From Tsukamurella asaccharolytica (GTDB lineage Bacteria > Actinomycetota > Actinomycetes > Mycobacteriales > Mycobacteriaceae), in NCBI RefSeq assembly GCF_007858435.1, contig NZ_VIGW01000013.1:20433-84432 (forward strand): a stretch of DNA of 64,000 bases, given 5' to 3'. The notes under the pieces are model-generated. The model had not been told where the DNA came from. It saw only the letters and a program-made list of their open reading frames with translations, and did no database searches. Made by a program: the position numbers and the translations under genes. Below, piece by piece: positions 8,071 to 28,229 of this stretch; within the stretch, counting starts at the first letter, position 1; every line of letters starts with the position of its first letter.

Positions 8071-9423
8071 CTACGCGATCGTGCGGATCAGCTTCTTGTT
8101 GAGGAACTCCTCGATGCCCAGGGGGCCCATCTCGCGGCCGAAGCCGGAGCGCTTCACGCCACCGAAGGGAAGCTCCGCCCCCTCGGCGAGCACGCCGTTG
8201 ACGAAGACCATTCCCGCCTGGATGCCGTTCGCGAGGCGGGCTGCCTGCTCCGGGTCGGTGGTGAAGACGTAGGAGCCGAGACCGAAGGGGGTGTCGTTGG
8301 CGAGAGCGAGGGCCTCGCCTTCGCCCTCCACCCGGTAGACCGTGGCGACGGGCCCGAACAGCTCCTGCCCGAATGCCGGGTTGTCCTCGGTGACGTTGGT
8401 GAGTACGGCGGGCGGGTAGAAGGCGCCGTCGCGCCGGCCCTCGATGGCGAGGCGCGCGCCCGCTTCCACAGCCTGGTTGACCTGCGTCTCGAGGGTGATC
8501 GCGGCGCGCTCCGAGGAGAGCGGCGCGATCCCGTCGCCGGCGGCGAGGAGTTTGCCGGTGAACTTCGTGAGGAAGTCGTCGTAGAGTTCCGCGGTCACGA
8601 TGAACCGCTTCGCCGCATTGCAGGACTGGCCGGTGTTGTCGAGGCGAGCGGCCACGGCGGCGTCGACGGTGGCGTCGAGGTCGTCGGTCGAGAGGACGAT
8701 GAACGGATCCGAGCCGCCCAGCTCCAGTACGCACTTCTTCAGGTTCCGTCCGGCGACCTCGGCGACGGCCGCGCCCGCCCGCTCCGAGCCGGTCAGGGAG
8801 ACCGCGGCCACCCGCGGGTCGGCGATGATGTCGGCCGCCTGCTCGTTGGTGACCCGGATGTTGACGTACGCGCCCGACGGCAGGCCCGCCTCGTTGAAGA
8901 TCACCTGCATCGCCTCGGCCGACTCGGGGCACTGCGGCGCGTGCTTGAGCAGGATCGTGTTGCCCGCGACCAGGTTCGGGCCGGCGAACCGGGCCACCTG
9001 GTAGTACGGGAAGTTCCACGGCATGATTCCGAACAGCACCCCGATGGGGGAGCGGCGGATCACCGCGGTGCCGTCACCCTCGAGTAGATCCAGCGGCTGG
9101 TCGGCGAGGAGCTTCTCGGCGTTGTCGGCGTAGTAGGTGTAGATCGCGGCGGAGAAGTCGACCTCGCCGAGCGCGTCCTCGAGCGGCTTGCCCATCTCCC
9201 GCTGGATGATCCGGGCGAGCGTCTCGCGGCGCTCGGTGTGCAGCTCGGCGACGCGACGCACCAGCGCGGCCCGCTCCGCGACCGTCGACTGCTGCGGCCA
9301 CGTCCGCGCGGCCCGCGACGCCGCGTCGATCGCCGCCTCGATCTCGGCGGGCTCGGCGGTGGGGTAGGTCTGCAGCACCTCGCCGGTGGCGGGGTCGGTG
9401 ACCGCGTACTGGATCTCGGGCAT
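8071..9423 (-). CDS. NAD(P)-dependent aldehyde dehydrogenase, succinate-semialdehyde type
   Basis: Aldehyde dehydrogenase superfamily, 450 residues. The catalytic cysteine is Cys268 in NTGQSCNA and the general base Glu235 in LELGGSDPF; PWNFPYYQV and the SLTGSERAG coenzyme motif are also present. The sequence is closest in style to GabD1/GabD-like succinate-semialdehyde dehydrogenases, but the acyl-CoA reductase gene upstream raises the option that it oxidises long-chain aldehydes. Start at 9423 is supported by AAGGAG 8 nt upstream; a longer frame upstream is not needed. It follows the reductase by 119 bp on the same strand. Confidence 0.92.
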   Translation of the reverse strand: MPEIQYAVTDPATGEVLQTYPTAEPAEIEAAIDAASRAARTWPQQSTVAERAALVRRVAELHTERRETLARIIQREMGKPLEDALGEVDFSAAIYTYYADNAEKLLADQPLDLLEGDGTAVIRRSPIGVLFGIMPWNFPYYQVARFAGPNLVAGNTILLKHAPQCPESAEAMQVIFNEAGLPSGAYVNIRVTNEQAADIIADPRVAAVSLTGSERAGAAVAEVAGRNLKKCVLELGGSDPFIVLSTDDLDATVDAAVAARLDNTGQSCNAAKRFIVTAELYDDFLTKFTGKLLAAGDGIAPLSSERAAITLETQVNQAVEAGARLAIEGRRDGAFYPPAVLTNVTEDNPAFGQELFGPVATVYRVEGEGEALALANDTPFGLGSYVFTTDPEQAARLANGIQAGMVFVNGVLAEGAELPFGGVKRSGFGREMGPLGIEEFLNKKLIRTIA

Positions 9424-9542
9424 CGTCGGATCTCCTTGTGGGGGATGGGAACGGTTCACTCCCCACGATAGGCAGATTCGACGGCGCTCGCGCCCGGTCC
9501 GCGGTTACTGCTGTGCGAAGTGCTGTACGGCACTGCGCGCAC

Positions 9543-11642
9543 CTACCAGTTGATGCCGGGCAGGCGGTTGAGGGTCTTGCGGGCGAGGCGTCGCAGTCCC
9601 TGATCGCCGGAGATGCCGAACAGCGGGCTGACGGCGGCGGTGGAGATGTCCTTCGAGAGGTCCTTGGTGGCCGCGAGCCGCCCGCGCGGTGTATCCACCT
9701 CGGCCACATCGACGTCCAGCACCTTCGCCGCGCCCTCTCCGCCGCCCTCGGGCTCCGGGAACAGGAGGTAGCCCTGGTGCTGGGCCGCGGCCGCGATGCG
9801 CGGAGAGAGGAACTGGCCGAACTGGGCGAGGGTGCCGAGCGGGGTGTCGATGCGCCGGGGCCGCTCGACGATCGCGCGCACCACGATCTGGCCGGCCTTC
9901 TCCACGGACAGCGCCATCGCGTTGTCGTACGCCTCGGTCGGCGCGATCATCCGCGTGCGAGTGAGCGGCATGTGGATGTTGGTGAAGGTCACGTGATCCG
10001 ACATGGTCTCGGCCGCCGTGATGTCGCTGAAGGCCTCGAGTGCCGACTTCGACGCGATGTACGCCGCGAACCGCGGGCCGCGCACCTGCACCCCGATCGA
10101 GGACACGTTGACCACGTGACCCGACTTGCGGGCGATCATGTGCGGCAACAGCTCCAGGATCAGGTAGACGGCGCCGAAGTAGTTGACCGCCATGGTGCGC
10201 TGGTAGTCGTGCGCGCGGTCGACGGAGTCGACCGTGGCCCGCCGGATGGACCTTCCGGCGCTGTTGACCAGCACGTCCACGTGGCCGTGCTCGGCGAGGA
10301 TCTGAGCGACGGTGGTGCGCACGGCCTCCGGATCGGTGACGTCGCACTGGTACGCGCGGATGATTCCCTTGGGCACGCCCGGAGTTCCGGGCTCGGCCTC
10401 GATCCGGTGTACGGCGTCGGCCAGGTCCTCGGGCTTGCGGGCGACGATGAAGACGTTGGCGCCCTTGACAACCGCCTGCTTCGCGGCCTCGCGGCCGATG
10501 CCGGAGGAGCCGCCCGTCAGCAGGATGTGCTTGCCCACGAGCGGGCCGCGGGGGTCGTCGCGGCGGTTGCGCGACGGGTCGAGGTGTCCGGCCCAGTAGT
10601 GGAACAGTCTCGGACCGTACGACTTCAGGCGCGGCAGCGCCACGCCGTACCGGCTCAGCACGCGGTGCGTCGCCTCCGAGTCGAACCGGGTGTTGTAGAA
10701 CGGGTGGTCCAGCAGCGACGGCGGGATGCCGAGCTGGCGCGCGATGGTGTCGCGCAGCGCCCGCACCTCGCCTCGGCGGCCGATCCGCGCCGCGAACTCG
10801 CCCAGCGGCGCGCTCGGCACCGGCAGCGTCTTCGGGCCGGAGAAGGCGGGCGCGATCGCCTCGTAGATCGTCGCCATGCTCTGACCCTTGGGGTCGGCCA
10901 GGTGGTAGACGGTGCCCGGCGCCGGTGGCGCGGTGACCAGCGCGACGATCGCAGCCGCCACGAAGTCCACCGGCACGACGTTGGTGTAGCCCAGATTCGC
11001 GAACGGCACGTGCAGGTGGTGCGGGATGGTCCCCATGAGCCGCAGGAACGGGAAGAAGTAGTAGGGGCCGTCGATCTTGTCGATCGCGCCCGTCATCGAG
11101 TCGCCCACCACGATCGACGGCCGGTAGATCTGCCACGGCACCGTCGACTCGCGCACGAGGCGCTCGGATTCGTACTTGGTGCGGTGGTACGGGGTGGGGA
11201 GGAACTGCGCGACGTCGAAGTCGGACTCGGCGAACCAACCCTCGTGGTTGCCGGCCACCGCCAGCGAGGAGACGTGGTGGATCGTGGCGCCGAGCCGGTC
11301 CGCGAGCTCCAGCACGTTCCGCGTGCCGTCGACGTTGGTCAGCTGCTGGAGCTCCTCGGGGGCGTCCATGTCGTAGACCGCCGCAAGGTGGATCACGTGG
11401 TCGACGTGCTCCGGGAGGTCGCCGGGGGTGATGCCGAGGCCGGGCCGCGTGACGTCGCCGGCGACGGGCACGACCTGCGGGGCGAGCTCGTGGCCCAGAT
11501 CCGCGATGAGCCGCTCGAACCGGGGGAGCGAGGCGTCGCGCACCAGCAGGTAGATCGGGCTGTCGCGGTCCGCAGCGGCGAGCCGCGCCACGACGGCACG
11601 GCCGATGAAGCCCGTCCCGCCCGTGACGAAGTAGCTGGCCAT
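9543..11642 (-). CDS. Two-domain SDR fatty acyl-CoA reductase (Acr/FcrA type)
   Basis: A 699-residue fusion of two Rossmann domains. The N-terminal extended SDR has GGTGFIG at residues 8-14, the active-site YHRTK at 152-156 and the family's YRPSIVVGDS; the C-terminal classical SDR has TGGSSGIG near 376-383 and a Y-x-A-S-K motif. This arrangement is that of bacterial fatty acyl-CoA reductases, which make fatty aldehydes and alcohols for wax esters (mycobacterial Rv3391 and Rv1543 type). The ATG directly precedes the N-terminal fold. Co-oriented with the aldehyde dehydrogenase downstream, so the pair may make and dispose of aldehydes. Confidence 0.9.
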   Translation of the reverse strand: MASYFVTGGTGFIGRAVVARLAAADRDSPIYLLVRDASLPRFERLIADLGHELAPQVVPVAGDVTRPGLGITPGDLPEHVDHVIHLAAVYDMDAPEELQQLTNVDGTRNVLELADRLGATIHHVSSLAVAGNHEGWFAESDFDVAQFLPTPYHRTKYESERLVRESTVPWQIYRPSIVVGDSMTGAIDKIDGPYYFFPFLRLMGTIPHHLHVPFANLGYTNVVPVDFVAAAIVALVTAPPAPGTVYHLADPKGQSMATIYEAIAPAFSGPKTLPVPSAPLGEFAARIGRRGEVRALRDTIARQLGIPPSLLDHPFYNTRFDSEATHRVLSRYGVALPRLKSYGPRLFHYWAGHLDPSRNRRDDPRGPLVGKHILLTGGSSGIGREAAKQAVVKGANVFIVARKPEDLADAVHRIEAEPGTPGVPKGIIRAYQCDVTDPEAVRTTVAQILAEHGHVDVLVNSAGRSIRRATVDSVDRAHDYQRTMAVNYFGAVYLILELLPHMIARKSGHVVNVSSIGVQVRGPRFAAYIASKSALEAFSDITAAETMSDHVTFTNIHMPLTRTRMIAPTEAYDNAMALSVEKAGQIVVRAIVERPRRIDTPLGTLAQFGQFLSPRIAAAAQHQGYLLFPEPEGGGEGAAKVLDVDVAEVDTPRGRLAATKDLSKDISTAAVSPLFGISGDQGLRRLARKTLNRLPGINW

Positions 11643-18020: not shown

Positions 18021-18824
18021 ATGACCGGTGACACGCCCTTCGTCCTCGCCGTCGCCAACCAGAAGGGCGGCGTCGCGAAGACCACCACCGTCGCCAGCCT
18101 GGGGGCGGCCCTCGTCGAACTGGGCGCCCGCGTGCTCGTCGTCGACCTCGACCCGCAGGGCTGCCTGACCTTCTCCCTCGGGCACAACCCCGACCGCATC
18201 GAGCGGAGCGTGCACGACGTCCTTCTGGGGGACAAGAAGATCGACGAGGTGCTGCTCGAGACCGAGGACGGGGTCACCGTGCTCCCCGCCACCCTCGACC
18301 TCGCCGGCGCCGAGGCGCTGCTGCTCATGCGCGCCGGCCGCGAGTACGCGCTCAAGCGGGCCCTCGCCGAGGTGAATGAGACGTTCGACGTGGTGATCAT
18401 CGACTGCCCGCCCAGCCTGGGCGTGCTGACCCTCAACGGCCTCACCGCCGCCGACGCCGTCGCGATCCCGCTGCAGTGCGAGACCCTCGCACACCGCGGC
18501 GTCGGGCAGCTGCTCAAGACGGTCCGTGACGTGCAGACCATCACCAACCCCGAGCTGAGCATGCTCGGTGCCATCGCCACTCTCTACGACGCGCGCACCA
18601 CGCACAGCCGCGACATCCTCTCCGACGTCGCCGACCGCTACGACCTCGCCGTGCTGTCGCCGCCGATCCCGCGCACCGTGCGGTTCGCCGAGGCGAACGC
18701 GGCCGGCCGCACCGTGCTCGCCGGCCGGAAGAACAAGGGCGCCACCGCCTACCGCGAGCTCGCGCAGAGCATTAAGGCGCACGTCTCCGACGGTGCGCCG
18801 CTGGTCACCTGGGTTCCCGAGTAG
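18021..18824 (+). CDS. ParA/Soj-family ATPase (Rv3213c-like)
   Basis: 267-residue deviant-Walker ATPase: [11 protein letters not shown] at residues 13-23, [10 protein letters not shown] (Walker A'), [16 protein letters not shown] (Walker B). This is an orphan ParA away from the oriC parAB pair, with no ParB-like gene nearby; its cargo is unknown. TACCCT (18009-18014) ends 6 nt before the ATG, so it is probably leaderless. Confidence 0.92.
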
Positions 18825-18873: not shown

Positions 18874-19533
18874 TCAGCGGCCGTGGGGCGCGTCGATGCC
18901 GTCCGCGGCGGGGCCCCGATCGACCCCGCGGCCGGTATCGCCGAGTTCGCGGGCACAGACGAGGAGGGTCGTCGCCGTTCCCGGCCCGACCGGGGCGCAT
19001 CGGTGGGGAGTGGTGCCCGCATGGTGCACGGTGTCTCCCGCGTCGAGGCGCACCGGCGGCTCGCCCTGGAGTTCCAGTGTGATCGAGCCCGAGAGCACGT
19101 AGATGAAGTCCTCGCCGGGGTGGCAGAACCAGCCCCGCTCCGGGGCCGCGGGATCGAACGTGTGCAGGTAGGCGGTGAGCCGCGCGTCGGCACCGGCGCG
19201 GGTGAGGGACTCCCCCTGGGGGCCCTGATCGTCGATCACGGCGAACCGCTCGCGCGTGACGGGCGTGGTGACCGCGGTCTCGATCGCGGGCGGATCCGCG
19301 GGCTCCGACCCCGGCGACGGTGTCAGGAGGTCGCCGGGTTCCACGCTGAGGGCGCGTGCGACGGTGATGAGCGTGGCCAGGCTGGGGCTGGCCGTCGCGT
19401 TCTCGAGCTGGCTCAGGTACGGCTGGGAGATGCCGGCCAACTGCGCGAGATAGCTCATCGAGTAACCGCGGGCGGTCCTGAGCCCGCGGATTCTTCGGCC
19501 TACCGCGACGGTCTCAGGTCTGGGCGTGCGCAC
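18874..19533 (-). CDS. XRE-family regulator with C-terminal cupin domain
   Basis: 219 residues from GTG 19533 (an in-frame GTG at 19614 could add 27). Helix-turn-helix at about 10-65 ([34 protein letters not shown]), then a linker, then a cupin barrel ([30 protein letters not shown]) that usually binds a small effector. Such HTH-cupin proteins control adjacent transport or catabolic genes. It is divergent from the ABC importer, with a TTATTGAC/GTCAATAA palindrome in between. The cassette is absent from the mycobacterial order. Confidence 0.9.
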
Positions 19534-19648
19534 TGCTGCGATGTTAGCCGCCGCTCGATGCGGCACCGGTGCGGCGCCCACTCCGCGAGGGGCCGGCGGC
19601 AGGAAGCTTTTCACTCAGGGTGATGCGAAATACCGCTCTGACTTGTGA

Positions 19649-19667
19649 TTATTGACGGTGTCAATAA
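19649..19667. promoter_or_regulatory. Palindromic operator candidate TTATTGAC-GGT-GTCAATAA
   Basis: Perfect 8-bp AT-rich arms (19649-19656 and 19660-19667) around GGT, 10 nt before the likely permease start (19678) and between divergent regulator and transporter genes. Its placement on the promoter suggests binding by the XRE/cupin protein. Confidence 0.65.
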
Positions 19668-19677
19668 CTCTGATGGC

Positions 19678-20478
19678 GTGACGAGAACAGAAGTCGGGCG
19701 CCCCGGCCGTGGGTATTCGGTGCTGCGCGTGCTCGACAACGGAGTGACGGCGGCGCTGGCAGGCCTCGCGGTCGTGCTGATCGCCTGGACGGCGGTGTCC
19801 GCCAGCGGGGTCGTCGACTCGACGCTGTTCCCGTCGCCGGCCCGCACCGCCCGAGCGGCCCTCGCGATGATCCAGTCCGGCGTCCTCGCCGATGATCTCG
19901 CCATGAGCCTGCAGCGCGCGGCCATCGGGTTCCTGATCGGCGCATCGCTGGGCATCCTGCTGGGATTCATCACCGGGCGGAATCCGCTGATCGCGCGTCT
20001 CGTCTCGCCGATCGTGTCGTTCCTGCGGCCGATCCCCGCGATCGCGTTGATCCCGCTGGTCACCGCGTGGTTCGGCATCGGGGAGGAGGCGAAACGCATC
20101 GTCATCGCGTACGCGGTGTTCCTCGCGGTGTGGCTCTACGTGCACGACGCCGTGCACCGGACCCCGCAGATCTACCTGCGCGTGTCGGACATGTTCGGCA
20201 TCGGGCGACTCCGTACGTGGCTCACGGTTCTCATTCCCTCGGCGGCGCCCGCGATCGTCACGGCTCTGCGCTACGGCAGCAGCATCGCCTACCTCGCCCT
20301 GGTCGCGGCCGAACTCGGCGGAACCCAGCAGGGCGTGGCCTACCGCATTCAGGTCGACGGCCAATTCATGCAGACCGACCGGATGTTCGTCGGCCTGATC
20401 GTCCTCGGGATCCTCGGCGCCGTCACGGATGTCGTGATCGCCGCGATCGGCCGCCGCGTCATCAATTGGAGCGAGTGA
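19678..20478 (+). CDS. ABC importer permease, SsuC/TauC/NrtB type
   Basis: 266-residue BPD_transp_1 membrane protein with six hydrophobic segments and the coupling-loop region EEAKRIVIAYAVF...VAAELGGTQQG (the EAA-like contact with the ATPase). The class imports sulfonates, nitrate, taurine, thiamine precursors or similar small molecules. GTG 19678 is preferred over GTG 19645, because the latter would place the palindrome inside the coding region. First gene of a four-gene unit. Confidence 0.9.
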   Translation: MTRTEVGRPGRGYSVLRVLDNGVTAALAGLAVVLIAWTAVSASGVVDSTLFPSPARTARAALAMIQSGVLADDLAMSLQRAAIGFLIGASLGILLGFITGRNPLIARLVSPIVSFLRPIPAIALIPLVTAWFGIGEEAKRIVIAYAVFLAVWLYVHDAVHRTPQIYLRVSDMFGIGRLRTWLTVLIPSAAPAIVTALRYGSSIAYLALVAAELGGTQQGVAYRIQVDGQFMQTDRMFVGLIVLGILGAVTDVVIAAIGRRVINWSE

Positions 20479-20479
20479 T

Positions 20480-21241
20480 ATGACCGACGATCACCCCGAC
20501 CGCCGCGGCGTCGTGGACATCCGTGAGCTCGGCGTGGAGTACCGGAAGGCGAGGAGCCGGGAGCCGGTGATCGCGCTCAGCGAGACCACGGCGCACATCG
20601 ACGCCGGCGCGTTCGTGACCCTGCTCGGGGCGAGCGGCTGCGGCAAATCCACGCTCCTCAACGCCATCGCGGGGTTCGTCCTGCCGTCGCACGGGTCGAT
20701 CGAGGTCGACGGTCGGCCCGTGCGTGGGCCCGGCCCGGACCGCGCGGTGGTCTTCCAGCAGTACGCACTCCTCCCGTGGCTCACCGCCCGCGCGAACATC
20801 GAATTCGCGCTCAAGCGCTTCGCATTGCCCCGTGCCGAGCAGCGCGAGCGCGCCCTCGCAGCGCTCGAGGCGGTGAACCTGGGGCATGCGGCGGACTCGC
20901 TGCCGGCGGAACTCTCCGGTGGCATGCAGCAGCGGGTGTCGATGGCCCGGGCGCTGGCCGCCGAACCGGACGTGCTGCTGATGGACGAGCCGTTCGGGGC
21001 TCTCGACGCCATCACCCGCGCGGTGATGCAAGAGCTCATCCTCGAGATCTGGGAGCGTACGTCCACCACGATCCTGTTCGTCACGCACGACGTGGACGAG
21101 GCGCTCTTCCTGTCGCAGCGGATCCTGCTGATGTCCGCGCAGCCAGGCCGGGTCACCGAGGACATCTCGCTCATCGGCGCCGACGAGCCCGCGCTGGCGG
21201 AGACCCGCAGGCGCATCGTCAGTCACCTCGGCGGGCACTGA
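20480..21241 (+). CDS. ABC importer ATP-binding protein, SsuB/TauB type
   Basis: 253-residue ATPase: Walker A GASGCGKST near residue 51, Q-loop VVFQQYALLPW, signature LSGGMQQRVSMARAL, Walker B VLLMDEPFGALD, H-loop FVTHDVDEAL. It starts 1 bp after the permease stop, so it is translationally coupled. It energises the permease at the inner face of the membrane. Confidence 0.95.
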   Translation: MTDDHPDRRGVVDIRELGVEYRKARSREPVIALSETTAHIDAGAFVTLLGASGCGKSTLLNAIAGFVLPSHGSIEVDGRPVRGPGPDRAVVFQQYALLPWLTARANIEFALKRFALPRAEQRERALAALEAVNLGHAADSLPAELSGGMQQRVSMARALAAEPDVLLMDEPFGALDAITRAVMQELILEIWERTSTTILFVTHDVDEALFLSQRILLMSAQPGRVTEDISLIGADEPALAETRRRIVSHLGGH

Positions 21242-21278
21242 CCAACCCACAACGATCCAACGAGAAAGGAGACACATC

Positions 21279-22298
21279 GTGATGGAGTCATCGGGTGTCA
21301 CACGGAGATTCGGTCGCTGGCAGCGCGTAGCGCTGGCGATCGCGACGATCGGGGTGCTCACCGCGGGATGCTCGAACGGTTCCGGCGGTGGCACCGGTTC
21401 GACGGAGAGGGTCACCATCGCCGGCGGTGATCAAGTCGGCGCGGCGCAATTCCTCGTCGCCGAGGCGCAGCAGCTGTGGACGGCCGAATCGCTGGAGGCC
21501 GCCCGGCAGTCGTTCCCGAGTGGACGCGACGCCCTCAACGCACTCATCGGTGGTCAGGCCCAGTTCGCCACGATCGGCGACCTGCCCACGGTGACCGCGG
21601 TGCTGAGCGGCAGGAAGCTCAACATCGTCGCGAACCTCTCCTGGGGCGTGAGCTGGCGTTTGCTGACCACCACGTCATCCGGGGTCAACGCGTTCCCGGA
21701 TCTCCGCGGGAAGCGCATCGGCGTCACCGAGGGGACGAACACCCAGTACCTCTTGAGCAAGGTGTTGGCCGACGGCGGCCTCACGCCGTCGGACGTCACG
21801 GTGGTGAACCTGGCGGCGAGCCAGATCCCGGCCTCGCTGTCGGCGGGCGACATCGACGCCGGATTCACCTTCCCCAGCTTCTACGCTGCGACGAAGAAGG
21901 CGCTCGGGCCGAGGTATCGCGAACTGGTCTACCCGGGCTACCAGAGCCCCACCCTGCTCGTCGCGCGCACGGACGTCTCCGATGCGCAGATCAGCAAGGT
22001 GCTGACGGTCCTGAACAGGGCCCAGAAGGTCGTCGACGACGACCCCGCGAAGGCGCGCGCAGACGTGGTCGCCGCCTCGAACAACACCCTGACCGCGGAC
22101 AACGTCAACGAGCTGTGGCCGCTCTACCAGGTGAAGCTGGGGCTCGACGTCCCGCTGCGCGACGCGCTGGTCGCCGAGGCCGAGTGGGCTACCACGTCGC
22201 TGCCGATCACCGTCACGGGCCGACCGGCGGATCTCGCCGCATCCCTGTATCCGGCGCCGCTGCGCTCGGTGTCGCCCGGCCTCGTCTCTCTTCCTTAG
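21279..22298 (+). CDS. ABC importer substrate-binding lipoprotein
   Basis: 339 residues. The N-terminus is basic, then hydrophobic, with the lipobox LTAGC near residue 31 and a Gly/Ser spacer after it. The mature part is of the SsuA/TauA/NMT1 type (QFATIGDLPTV, SSGVNAFPDLRGKRIGVTEGTNTQYLL, AGDIDAGFTFPSFYA). GAT and GLT-like motifs do not fix the ligand. AAAGGAG at 21265-21271 supports GTG 21279 or ATG 21282. It captures the substrate outside the membrane for the upstream permease and ATPase. Confidence 0.92.
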   Translation: MMESSGVTRRFGRWQRVALAIATIGVLTAGCSNGSGGGTGSTERVTIAGGDQVGAAQFLVAEAQQLWTAESLEAARQSFPSGRDALNALIGGQAQFATIGDLPTVTAVLSGRKLNIVANLSWGVSWRLLTTTSSGVNAFPDLRGKRIGVTEGTNTQYLLSKVLADGGLTPSDVTVVNLAASQIPASLSAGDIDAGFTFPSFYAATKKALGPRYRELVYPGYQSPTLLVARTDVSDAQISKVLTVLNRAQKVVDDDPAKARADVVAASNNTLTADNVNELWPLYQVKLGLDVPLRDALVAEAEWATTSLPITVTGRPADLAASLYPAPLRSVSPGLVSLP

Positions 22299-22308
22299 GA
22301 GTATCACC

Positions 22309-23436
22309 GTGTCCACTGACCTTTCCCGGAACACTCTGGCGCGGCGGGGCGTCGGGCTGCGGCATCTCGACCGCGATGCCGCGTACGACGGCTACACCCT
22401 GTACACGCCGATCGCCGGAGCCGGCGAGACCTACCTGATCGACCTCGACGGCGTGGTCGTGCACACCTGGCGGCTGCCCTTCCCGCCGGGCAGGCACGCC
22501 CGCATCCTCGACACCGGAAATCTGCTCTTCAACGGCAAGCTCGACCAGGACGAGCCGCTGTTCCCGATCTGGGGCGTCTACCACGGCGGGATCGTCGCCG
22601 AGGTGGCACCGGATTCGACGATCCTGCGGCGCCTGGACCATCCCTTCCAGCACCACGACGCCATCGTGCTCAGGAACGGCAACCTGGCGCTGCTCACCGT
22701 CGAGCGACTCACCCCCGAGCAGGCGGAACGGGTCCGGGGAGGGGTACCCGGGTCGGAGGCGGCCGGCGGCGCCATCTACGGCGACGTCGTCGTCGAGGTC
22801 ACATGGGACGGCGAGCAGGTGTGGCGATGGTCGGCCGCGGAGAACCTCGACCCCGACGAGGCCGTGCTCGATCGACACTTCGCGCGGGACCACTGGCCGA
22901 TGGCCAACACCATCTCGGAGACTCCGGACGGCGACCTGATCGTGGGATTCCGCAGCACCTCGCAGGTGGTCCTGATCCGGCGCGGGACCGGCGAGATCGG
23001 CTGGACCTTGGGCGCACCGCACGTCGCGCAGCAGCACTACCCGCATCAGCTGGACAACGGGAACATCCTGGTGTTCGACAACGGTAGCTTCCGCGATCCC
23101 ATCAGCTTCCCCTATTCCCGAGCGGTCGAGTGGAATCCCGCCTCGGGCGAGGAGGTGTGGGTGTACCAGGACAACCCGCCGCAGAACTTCTACAGCCCGT
23201 ACATGGGGTCCGCGCAGCGGCTTCCCAACGGCAACACCCTGATCGCGGAGGGAAGCTTCGGCCGCATCTTCGAGGTCACGACCGACGGGAGAGTCGTGTG
23301 GGAGTACCGGGTGCCCGAGTTCGGGGCCTTCGGCGCCGGGGTCGGCCTGGATTCCTCTCAGGGCCCGAACAATTCGATCTTCCGGGCGTATCGGTACCCG
23401 CGAGAGGCCGTCGCGCACCTTCTCCCGCCGTCGTAA
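22309..23436 (+). CDS. Arylsulfotransferase-like (ASST, Arylsulfotransf_2) beta-propeller protein
   Basis: 375 residues with the features of the ASST group: an N-terminal GYTLYTPIAG...TYLIDLDGVVVHTW, repeated W-and-G rich blades (NGNLALLTVERL, PDGDLIVGFRSTS, LDNGNILVFDNGS, LPNGNTLIAEGSFGRIFEV) and paired histidines (HHDAIV, HYPHQLDNGN). Classic enzymes move sulfate between phenolic compounds. Unusually for the family, I see no signal peptide or lipobox, so this one appears cytoplasmic. AGGAG lies 7 nt before the GTG, 10 bp after the binding protein, so it is the last gene of the importer operon. Confidence 0.8.
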   Translation: MSTDLSRNTLARRGVGLRHLDRDAAYDGYTLYTPIAGAGETYLIDLDGVVVHTWRLPFPPGRHARILDTGNLLFNGKLDQDEPLFPIWGVYHGGIVAEVAPDSTILRRLDHPFQHHDAIVLRNGNLALLTVERLTPEQAERVRGGVPGSEAAGGAIYGDVVVEVTWDGEQVWRWSAAENLDPDEAVLDRHFARDHWPMANTISETPDGDLIVGFRSTSQVVLIRRGTGEIGWTLGAPHVAQQHYPHQLDNGNILVFDNGSFRDPISFPYSRAVEWNPASGEEVWVYQDNPPQNFYSPYMGSAQRLPNGNTLIAEGSFGRIFEVTTDGRVVWEYRVPEFGAFGAGVGLDSSQGPNNSIFRAYRYPREAVAHLLPPS

Positions 23437-23449
23437 CAACCGCGGCCGG

Positions 23450-24688
23450 CTACGCCGCGCGGTAGGCCTGGACCGTCGATCCCCACTGCGCGATCATCGT
23501 GGTGCCCACCTCGGCCAGCAGCACGGGTCCGTCGGTGTAGCCGGGCTTGGCGATCGGGGTCGAGCGCGTCATGGCCCGCGTGTTGAGGTCGTACGCGGTG
23601 AGCGACGTCGGCCCCGGCACCACGAGCTGGCCGCCGACCACGGCGCCGGGCCCGAGGGTCCCCGGGATGACCATCGCCGCGGCCAGCGAGGCGGCGTCGA
23701 CCACCACCGTCGACGTGCCGGTGAAGAAGGCGGCGATGCCCGCCTCGGTGACGACGGGAACCTCGCGTGGGGCGCCGCCCGGACCGGTGGTCACGTCGAC
23801 GGAGCGCAGCGTGCGGCCCTGCGGGTCGACGGTGGTCACCCGCGCGGGACGTCCGTCCTGGGCGGGCACGTACACCACCGCGCCGTTGGCCGTGGCGGTG
23901 ATGAGTCGGGCGCGGTCGCCGCCCTCGGGCGCGGCGTCGCCCAGGTCCGGGCTGACGACCGACGAGGTCTCCTGCGGCTCGGAGGCCTCCTTGGGGGAGG
24001 CGCCGATCACGGTGAGCCGGGGGTAGGGCTCCGTCGGGCAGGCCTCGAGGATGGTGATCGACGCACCGGCGGGCAGCGCCGAGCCGATCGTGCACCCGGA
24101 CCGCGGCTGCACGCCGGGGTTCACGGGCACGTCGGGCTTGCCGTATTCGACGGTGCGCACGAGGTCCGAGCGGAAGACGTCGACGCGCGTCGGCCCCTGG
24201 ACGACCGCGTAGTTGCCGTCGCCGGTGAGGGTCACGTCGTGGTCCTCGCGGCTGGTGCGGCTCGCGCGCCGCTGCCCGGTGCCCGGGTCGAGCGCCATCA
24301 CCTCGCCGCAGCCGCGGACGTCGCGGTAGAACGCGAGCACGAGCCCGGCATTGTCCGTGAGCCCGCAGACATCACTGTCGCGCTGGTAGCGCCAGGTGCG
24401 CTGCCCCGTCGCGGGATCGTGTCCGGCGACCTCGCCGCCCCGGCTCAGGACGAGGGAGCCGCCGAGGGCCAGCGGGGGACGGTCGGACTGCGCGGTCCAC
24501 GCCTCGCGGAGCGCGGCGGGCAGCTCGACGAGGGCGGACGGCGCCGTCGACGGTGCGGGGGCGGTCTCGCTCACCGTCTTGCTGGCGGAGCCGGTGTTCC
24601 ACGCCACGAAGCCCGCGACGACGACCGCGACCAGGATCGCGGCCGAGACCGCCAGATCGACGCGGGTCCTGCGTTCGGGTTTCACCAC
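23450..24688 (-). CDS. Membrane-anchored PQQ-like beta-propeller protein (Rv3212-like)
   Basis: 412 residues: one N-terminal transmembrane helix (about 10-30), a Thr/Ala/Pro-rich linker, then an extracytoplasmic region with propeller-type repeats (GGEVAGHDPATGQRTWRYQR, EVMALDPGTGQRRA, LTAYDLNTRAMTRS). Four to six cysteines could form disulfides outside the cell. Matches Rv3212 in position; role not known to me. GTG 24688 or the next GTG may be the start. Convergent with the arylsulfotransferase-like gene. Confidence 0.82.
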   Translation of the reverse strand: MVKPERRTRVDLAVSAAILVAVVVAGFVAWNTGSASKTVSETAPAPSTAPSALVELPAALREAWTAQSDRPPLALGGSLVLSRGGEVAGHDPATGQRTWRYQRDSDVCGLTDNAGLVLAFYRDVRGCGEVMALDPGTGQRRASRTSREDHDVTLTGDGNYAVVQGPTRVDVFRSDLVRTVEYGKPDVPVNPGVQPRSGCTIGSALPAGASITILEACPTEPYPRLTVIGASPKEASEPQETSSVVSPDLGDAAPEGGDRARLITATANGAVVYVPAQDGRPARVTTVDPQGRTLRSVDVTTGPGGAPREVPVVTEAGIAAFFTGTSTVVVDAASLAAAMVIPGTLGPGAVVGGQLVVPGPTSLTAYDLNTRAMTRSTPIAKPGYTDGPVLLAEVGTTMIAQWGSTVQAYRAA

Positions 24689-27597: not shown

Positions 27598-27603
27598 GTG
27601 CTC

Positions 27604-27837
27604 ATGCGCACCATCACGAGCACTGAGGCGAAAGCCAAGTTCAACGCGATCATCGCCGAGGTCGAGAAGACGGGGAGCCCGGTCACTGTCACCTCGCATG
27701 GCCGCGCGGCGGTCATCATCACGCCGGTGACCCCGCGGAGCCGGACATTCGGACAGTTCCCCGGCCTGGAGATCCCCGACGACTTCGACGCCCCGCTCCC
27801 CGACGCTGAGCTGGCGGCCTGGGACGCCGTCTCGTGA
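27604..27837 (+). CDS. Phd/YefM-family antitoxin
   Basis: 77 residues beginning MRTITSTEAKAKFNAIIAEVEKTGSPVTVTSHGRAAVII, the DNA-binding fold of Phd/YefM antitoxins; the C-terminus (DFDAPLPDAELAAW) is the acidic, probably disordered toxin-neutralising part. The ATG at 27604 is probably the first base of the mRNA; GTG 27598 is an alternative. Overlaps the toxin gene by 4 bp (GTGA). Confidence 0.93.
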   Translation: MRTITSTEAKAKFNAIIAEVEKTGSPVTVTSHGRAAVIITPVTPRSRTFGQFPGLEIPDDFDAPLPDAELAAWDAVS

Positions 27838-28229
27838 CCGCCGTGCTCCTCGACACTAACGCGCTGCTCTGGCTCGCGAAATCGCCCGAACTGGTGGCGG
27901 CGTCGGCCCGCGAGGTGCTCGAAAACCCGGCCAACGAGCTATTCATCTCGGCGGCCTCAGCGTGGGAGATCGCGATCAAAACTCGTCTGGGGCGTCTCGA
28001 CGGCGCGGCGATCCTGTCGAGCTGGACGGACACCCTGGAAGCGATGACCGCGCAGGAGCTGGTCATGGACTCGGCAGACGCCACGCTGGCCGGGCAGCTG
28101 AACTGGGACCACCGGGACCCGTTCGACCGCATGATCGTCGCCCAAGCCACACGTCGCGGGCTCGCCATCGCCACCAGCGACCGTGCGATCCACGCGGGGG
28201 CGATGACGCCGGTCATCGTCACGAAATAG
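27834..28229 (+). CDS. PIN-domain RNase toxin (VapC-like)
   Basis: 131 residues. The four acidic metal-binding residues of PIN nucleases are visible: Asp in LLDTNALLW (residue 7), Glu in SAWEIAIK, Asp in HRDPFDRMIVAQA and Asp in ATSDRAI. Such toxins cut tRNA or rRNA. It pairs with a Phd/YefM rather than a VapB antitoxin, a common mixed arrangement. Translationally coupled to the antitoxin. Confidence 0.93.
   Translation: MTAVLLDTNALLWLAKSPELVAASAREVLENPANELFISAASAWEIAIKTRLGRLDGAAILSSWTDTLEAMTAQELVMDSADATLAGQLNWDHRDPFDRMIVAQATRRGLAIATSDRAIHAGAMTPVIVTK

Follow-up and report, generated by a model that had tools for sequence, protein, structure and literature searches.

According to a 2026 review (PMC13426309), the natural substrates of arylsulfotransferases (ASTs) have escaped identification for more than 40 years, and the bacterial role of these enzymes is poorly understood, Cpz4, which acts in antibiotic synthesis, being the exception. 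The nearest work in the open-access literature searched is a neighbourhood survey of the mostly exported ASTs (termed ASSTs) of Sutterella wadsworthensis (PMC10932419). Here we describe a cassette of five genes in Tsukamurella asaccharolytica, consisting of an importer, its own regulator and an intracellular AST-like enzyme, which is an accessory unit. It is contained in a stretch of 64,000 nucleotides (assembly GCF_007858435.1, contig NZ_VIGW01000013.1, positions 20,433 to 84,432, forward strand), the whole of which is called the window; coordinates refer to it.

Cpz4 (PDB 9kf4, 9kf6) is a sulfotransferase of caprazamycin synthesis which is independent of 3'-phosphoadenosine-5'-phosphosulfate; its setting is biosynthetic (PMC13426309) and not linked to an importer, whereas the window enzyme is importer-linked. 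AssT (EcAST) of E. coli CFT073 (PDB 3elq) is periplasmic and has 571 residues, an N-terminal beta-sandwich domain and a disulfide (PMC13426309). The window protein, with 375 amino acids (aa), seems to be without that domain, and no hydrophobic signal stretch was seen at its N-terminus (MSTDLSRNTLARRGVG...), as read from the sequence by eye, without a signal-peptide program. This agrees with the first-pass annotation, which had described the last gene as AST-like and lacking an export signal. The ASSTs of Sutterella wadsworthensis resemble the present case in that 7 of 17 have a LysR gene close by and isolated ones an ABC transporter or TonB gene; they differ by their length of 449–615 aa and by predicted signal peptides in 16 of the 17 (PMC10932419). 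The features of the locus are:

18021..18824, plus strand: ParA-like gene, left flank, conserved genus-wide
18874..19614, minus strand: XRE (HTH_3)-Cupin_2 regulator, divergent from the operon (Pfam HTH_3 3e-13, Cupin_2 2e-11)
19649..19667, no strand: palindrome TTATTGAC-GGT-GTCAATAA, putative operator of the XRE-cupin regulator, perfect arms of 8 nt, spacer of 3 nt
19678..20478, plus strand: ABC importer permease, TauC/SsuC-like (Pfam BPD_transp_1 1e-15; longest open reading frame (ORF) from 19645)
20480..21241, plus strand: ABC importer ATPase, TauB/NrtCD/SaoA-like (Pfam ABC_tran 1e-30)
21279..22298, plus strand: substrate-binding lipoprotein, NMT1/SsuA family (NMT1 1e-16; lipobox LTAGC by eye)
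22309..23436, plus strand: AST-like six-bladed propeller, 375 aa, without evident signal peptide
23450..24688, minus strand: Rv3212-family gene, right flank, conserved genus-wide (NF050114, 359 bits, cut-off 150)

ORF coordinates and matches to Pfam and NCBIfam confirmed the five genes at this place. The gaps between the four plus-strand genes are 1, 37 and 10 bp; permease to AST-like gene are therefore likely on one transcript, and a ribosome-binding-like AGGAG, read by eye, precedes the AST-like gene. The Rv3212-like gene is present in all 16 genomes of the genus, the window genome included, and in 14 of the 15 others it abuts the ParA-like gene tail to tail, at most some tens of bases apart. 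Only the window genome carries the AST cassette at this site, and the block is thus an insertion, as the earlier description of it as extra within a conserved gene order had implied. Its G+C content is 69.1%, compared to 71.5% for the window, and no transposase or integrase was found among the genes recognised inside it (ORF list, Pfam). In the remaining genome (G007; L119 486-1400) the two flanking genes are separated by a different ORF, which codes for about 304 aa and looks phosphotransferase-like by eye; this site may therefore tend to take up insertions.

A search of neighbourhoods in other genomes showed that the cassette recurs. Streptomyces sp. NBC_01001 has the identical order of regulator, permease, ATPase, substrate-binding protein (SBP) and AST-like gene, the latter coding for a protein 62% identical to that of the window, and each of the seven Streptomyces-group loci whose AST gene is complete (L011, L019–L024; L020 is from an Actinobacteria bacterium) has all five genes. 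The neighbourhood had been counted as four genes; it does recur, but the recurring unit comprises five. Likewise, the statement that no such system was described holds for the open-access literature searched, where no paper on the five-gene cassette was found, but the composition is not unique, since the five genes occur together in Streptomyces. Two loci with truncated AST genes (L025, L098) have no cassette. The shortened gene of Streptomyces sp. CBMA123 (L025, 10031-10834), which is outside the alignment of 70 sequences used below, has Lys at the position of Asn200, no importer genes were found near it, and it is perhaps a decaying copy. In four loci with flanks of 1.5 kb (L099–L102) an SBP gene was upstream of the AST-like gene in every case. 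Two congeners (G010, G011) and a member of the family (G021) possess an AST-like gene, 46–47% identical, next to an NCS2 permease gene; in the two congeners it lies elsewhere than at the ParA/Rv3212 site.

The divergent XRE-cupin gene is also present in the Streptomyces-group cassettes, and the same half-site palindrome is found at the same intergenic place in all seven loci examined (core GTCAATTATTGAC); the palindrome of the window is this half-site turned round (ATTGAC-GGT-GTCAAT). Nocardia-type loci carry CTGAATATTCAG instead of the Streptomyces-group core. In the window genome of 4.12 Mb the palindrome is the sole site, with up to two mismatches allowed, so control looks local. The palindrome is likely the operator of the XRE-cupin regulator. 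Since the ORF from 19645 would overlap the palindrome, the in-frame GTG at 19678 appears the likelier start of the permease.

The predicted fold of the AST-like protein agrees with the six-bladed propeller of AssT and Cpz4, Cpz4 being the closest solved fold. His243 aligns with His436 of AssT, the catalytic histidine which becomes sulfated, and His116, Asn200 and Arg215 correspond to AssT His252, Asn358 and Arg374, which are located around the sulfuryl group; each of these four positions is invariant in the 70 aligned AST-like sequences. By modelled fold and core residues the protein is thus assigned to the AST superfamily. Two differences from AssT are Met198 for His356 (Cpz4 has His there) and Met299 for Thr501; the second is not diagnostic, as Cpz4 has Gln at this place in the alignment. 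Residues co-vary: sequences with His198 have mostly Glu195-Trp-Thr/Ser-His (WTH form), those with Met or Leu at 198 have His195-Trp-Pro-Met/Leu (HWP signature). In a quick maximum-likelihood tree of the 70 sequences (unrooted, short search, signature columns kept in), one branch with SH-aLRT support of 100 separated 50 HWP sequences, among them Arg62 in 50 and Met299 in 49, and the window protein grouped with Streptomyces sequences (support 99). On these sequence grounds the HWP proteins are regarded as a new clade of AST-like enzymes. Of 93 AST-like loci, 62 were of the HWP type, 27 had the WTH form, and 4 belonged to neither.

The most surprising result was the exchange of importers around this one enzyme. 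Importers could be labelled by tblastn for 56 of 65 HWP sequences (62 loci, the window, L002 and L003): window-type ABC importers in 25, NCS2 permeases in 13, THI5-like ABC importers in 7, orphan Bug proteins in 6, an SBP with a TonB receptor in 3 and APC permeases in 2. Of the 65, 52 had a divergently encoded regulator of a kind that senses ligands (XRE-cupin 17, LysR 16, LacI 14, GATR 5). On a quick tree, in which 15 of 62 inner branches were open, the importer label required 12 changes (shuffled mean 28.2) and the regulator label, for 52 sequences, 3; labels were automatic and reference neighbours came from the same loci. LysR was paired with THI5-like ABC (6), Bug (5), NCS2 (4) and window-type ABC (1), XRE-cupin with window-type ABC (8) and NCS2 (7), and LacI with window-type ABC (11), THI5-like ABC (1) and NCS2 (1). 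What stays constant across the clade is the enzyme; the importer can be replaced. As importers are exchanged under an unchanged regulator, the various importer types probably have one ligand in common, and since unrelated importer families serve one enzyme this ligand could be narrowed by intersection. The same enzyme beside different importers in many bacteria thus offers a route to the function of the family: many members of an intracellular AST-like clade have a dedicated importer and regulator, and the ligand of the lipoprotein, or the inducer of the regulator, would name the substrate, which makes the open question directly testable.

The importer of the window had been placed in the sulfonate/taurine class. 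The class of the SBP (NMT1/SsuA) could be upheld, and permease and ATPase are also of the classes found in SsuABC and TauABC, but every component scores below the SsuA, Tau or Ssu cut-offs: the permease with 121 bits for TauC (cut-off 342) and 120 for SsuC (cut-off 347), the ATPase with 240 for TauB (cut-off 357), and the lipoprotein with 111.9 for SsuA_fam TIGR01728 (cut-off 163.5). A further difference is that SsuD, SsuE and TauD are missing from the window cassette. The best solved relatives of the lipoprotein are SsuA and TauA. Of the sulfonate site (residues taken from PMC6906117 and PMC3839906) it retains Gln30, Gly61 and Gly79 of TauA, and Asn replaces Thr132 in the alignment; as Thr132 contacts the sulfonate via its main-chain amine (PMC6906117), Asn need not abolish the site. 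Both partner SBPs from Pseudomonas retain Gln, Gly, Gly and Ser of the site, and that of L039 exceeds the SsuA-family cut-off.

Neighbours connected with sulfur acquisition, in line with the first-pass suggestion that a sulfated or sulfonated compound is imported, were found in several relatives. In genus g63, inferred to be Streptomyces, an NtaA/DmoA-family gene above the cut-off lies 1.6–5.4 kb from the window-type gene in 3 of 4 genomes, with 1–3 such genes listed per genome; no link was seen in G387, the fourth (about 820 contigs, window-type gene), or in a fifth genome of the genus, G325, which has an NCS2-type gene. Behind the annotated plasmid copy come genes for an ABC system, with an SBP best matched by a cystine-binding model (below cut-off), for a GNAT protein and for several LLM monooxygenases, a set which we take to resemble the alkyl-cysteine operon of Bacillus. 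The Variovorax locus (L016) contains MsuE, SfnB-like and SsuD-like genes, the last two below cut-off. A TauD-family dioxygenase gene follows directly behind the permease in L051 and L084; that of L051 has taurine dioxygenase as its best solved relative and is below the cut-off of the taurine dioxygenase model. In Kitasatospora aureofaciens (L098, about 9161-10552) the truncated AST-like gene abuts an SsuD-like gene on the opposite strand, 53% identical to E. coli SsuD.

With a probability of roughly 0.44, the cassette would be a ligand-induced unit for import and processing of an organosulfur compound, a ligand suggested by the sulfur neighbours of relatives and the partly kept sulfonate site. 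In the divergent promoter, the XRE-cupin protein would occupy the palindrome until its cupin pocket is filled by the imported ligand or a product of it, and would then come off. The substrate taken up through the lipoprotein and the ABC importer would be a small organosulfur compound, probably a planar or aromatic one. Inside the cell the propeller could accept the sulfuryl group on His243, surrounded by His116, Asn200 and Arg215, and pass it to water or to an acceptor, such that the cell would gain sulfur or the freed scaffold; sulfuryl transfer via His243 is suggested by the AST fold and residues. A more far-reaching version, which we consider unlikely, is that the HWP clade would be a cytosolic, metal-free sulfohistidine enzyme desulfating imported (hetero)aromatic sulfate esters. 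It would be a novel type of sulfatase and give organosulfur assimilation a new entry route, supplied by five or more exchangeable kinds of importer, with Arg62, His195, Met198 and Met299 tuning an ancestral transferase toward water as acceptor.

Several observations weigh against an organosulfur ligand. The window cassette has no sulfur gene next to it, most relatives are without one nearby, LLM genes within 9 kb occur in just 7 of the 62 HWP loci (five of which, L099–L103, have flanks of 1.5 kb, and some others stop at contig ends), and TauD in 2 of the 7 THI5-like ABC loci. Besides the importer scores, the residues of the window-type SBPs are unfavourable: among 12, Gln30 is kept in one (that of the window), Gly79 in 3 and Thr132 in none, all having Asn. 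All 12 have Arg at the position of TauA Glu106, which binds the amine of taurine (PMC6906117); this might speak against a taurine-like ligand, although the placement comes from one alignment and is shifted, and hence unsure, in a second. The position of AssT His356 is occupied by Met (24), Leu (24), His (19), Tyr (2) or Val (1) in the 70 sequences and by Met, Leu or rarely another residue within the HWP clade. The NCS2 partners have as their best subfamily model the xanthine permease pbuX, below cut-off, and 7 of 7 aligned ones conserve Glu241 and Glu290 of UraA, which bind uracil (PMC5539350). The SBPs of the THI5-like ABC group are closest to THI5/ThiY-like proteins. In part, the altered His356 position and these partners would lean toward a sulfur-free ligand, the kind of result named beforehand as one that would refute the sulfur interpretation. 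Such a ligand could be a nucleobase-like or pyrimidine- or pyridine-like heterocycle serving as nitrogen or carbon source, with the propeller recruited for another histidine-based reaction, e.g., hydrolysis or ring opening; the amidohydrolase genes that a few loci (L012, L016, L017, L043) have no more than about 4 kb away would fit. We hold this to be somewhat unlikely, in view of the invariant position of the sulfated histidine, the full sulfonate site of the Pseudomonas partner SBPs and the partial one of the window SBP, and the SsuD-like, MsuE, SfnB-like, TauD and NtaA/DmoA neighbours. A planar ligand bearing a sulfo group would fit both bodies of evidence.

Two further explanations concern the enzyme itself. 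An imported aryl sulfate might act as donor for sulfation of a cellular metabolite or a toxic substance, in the way that Cpz4 sulfates caprazamycin. The closest solved fold is indeed this Streptomyces AST with its biosynthetic role (PMC13426309), but the recurring unit consists of regulator, importer and enzyme, with no biosynthetic genes, and this direction appears improbable. The protein could also be a non-catalytic intracellular binder or sensor of the imported ligand, considering that one active-site histidine of AssT is replaced and that a dedicated regulator with most cassettes makes signalling plausible. Yet 40 polar or aromatic positions, the catalytic histidine and its partners included, are conserved in at least 49 of the 50 clade sequences, as expected of an enzyme, and the ligand-sensing type of regulator is already at hand in most HWP loci, which leaves this role very improbable.

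Other AST-like genes had different surroundings. In L091, L092 and L093 genes or gene pieces were arranged in tandem pairs. In Chloroflexota (L068, L069, L073) WTH-form genes lie between MtnA-like (IF-2B) and MtnP-like phosphorylase genes, with AdoHcyase and a rhodanese-like ORF near, resembling a methionine-salvage cluster (Pfam on L069 only). In Nostocales (L026–L034, L038) the WTH-form gene is followed within about 0.35 kb by a glutathione S-transferase gene in 9 of 10 loci, and in 8 loci an aldo/keto reductase gene is found upstream within 1.4 kb. Within the window (27598-28229, plus strand), an ORF for a Phd/YefM-type antitoxin precedes one for a PIN-domain protein, and the two are likely a type II toxin-antitoxin pair.

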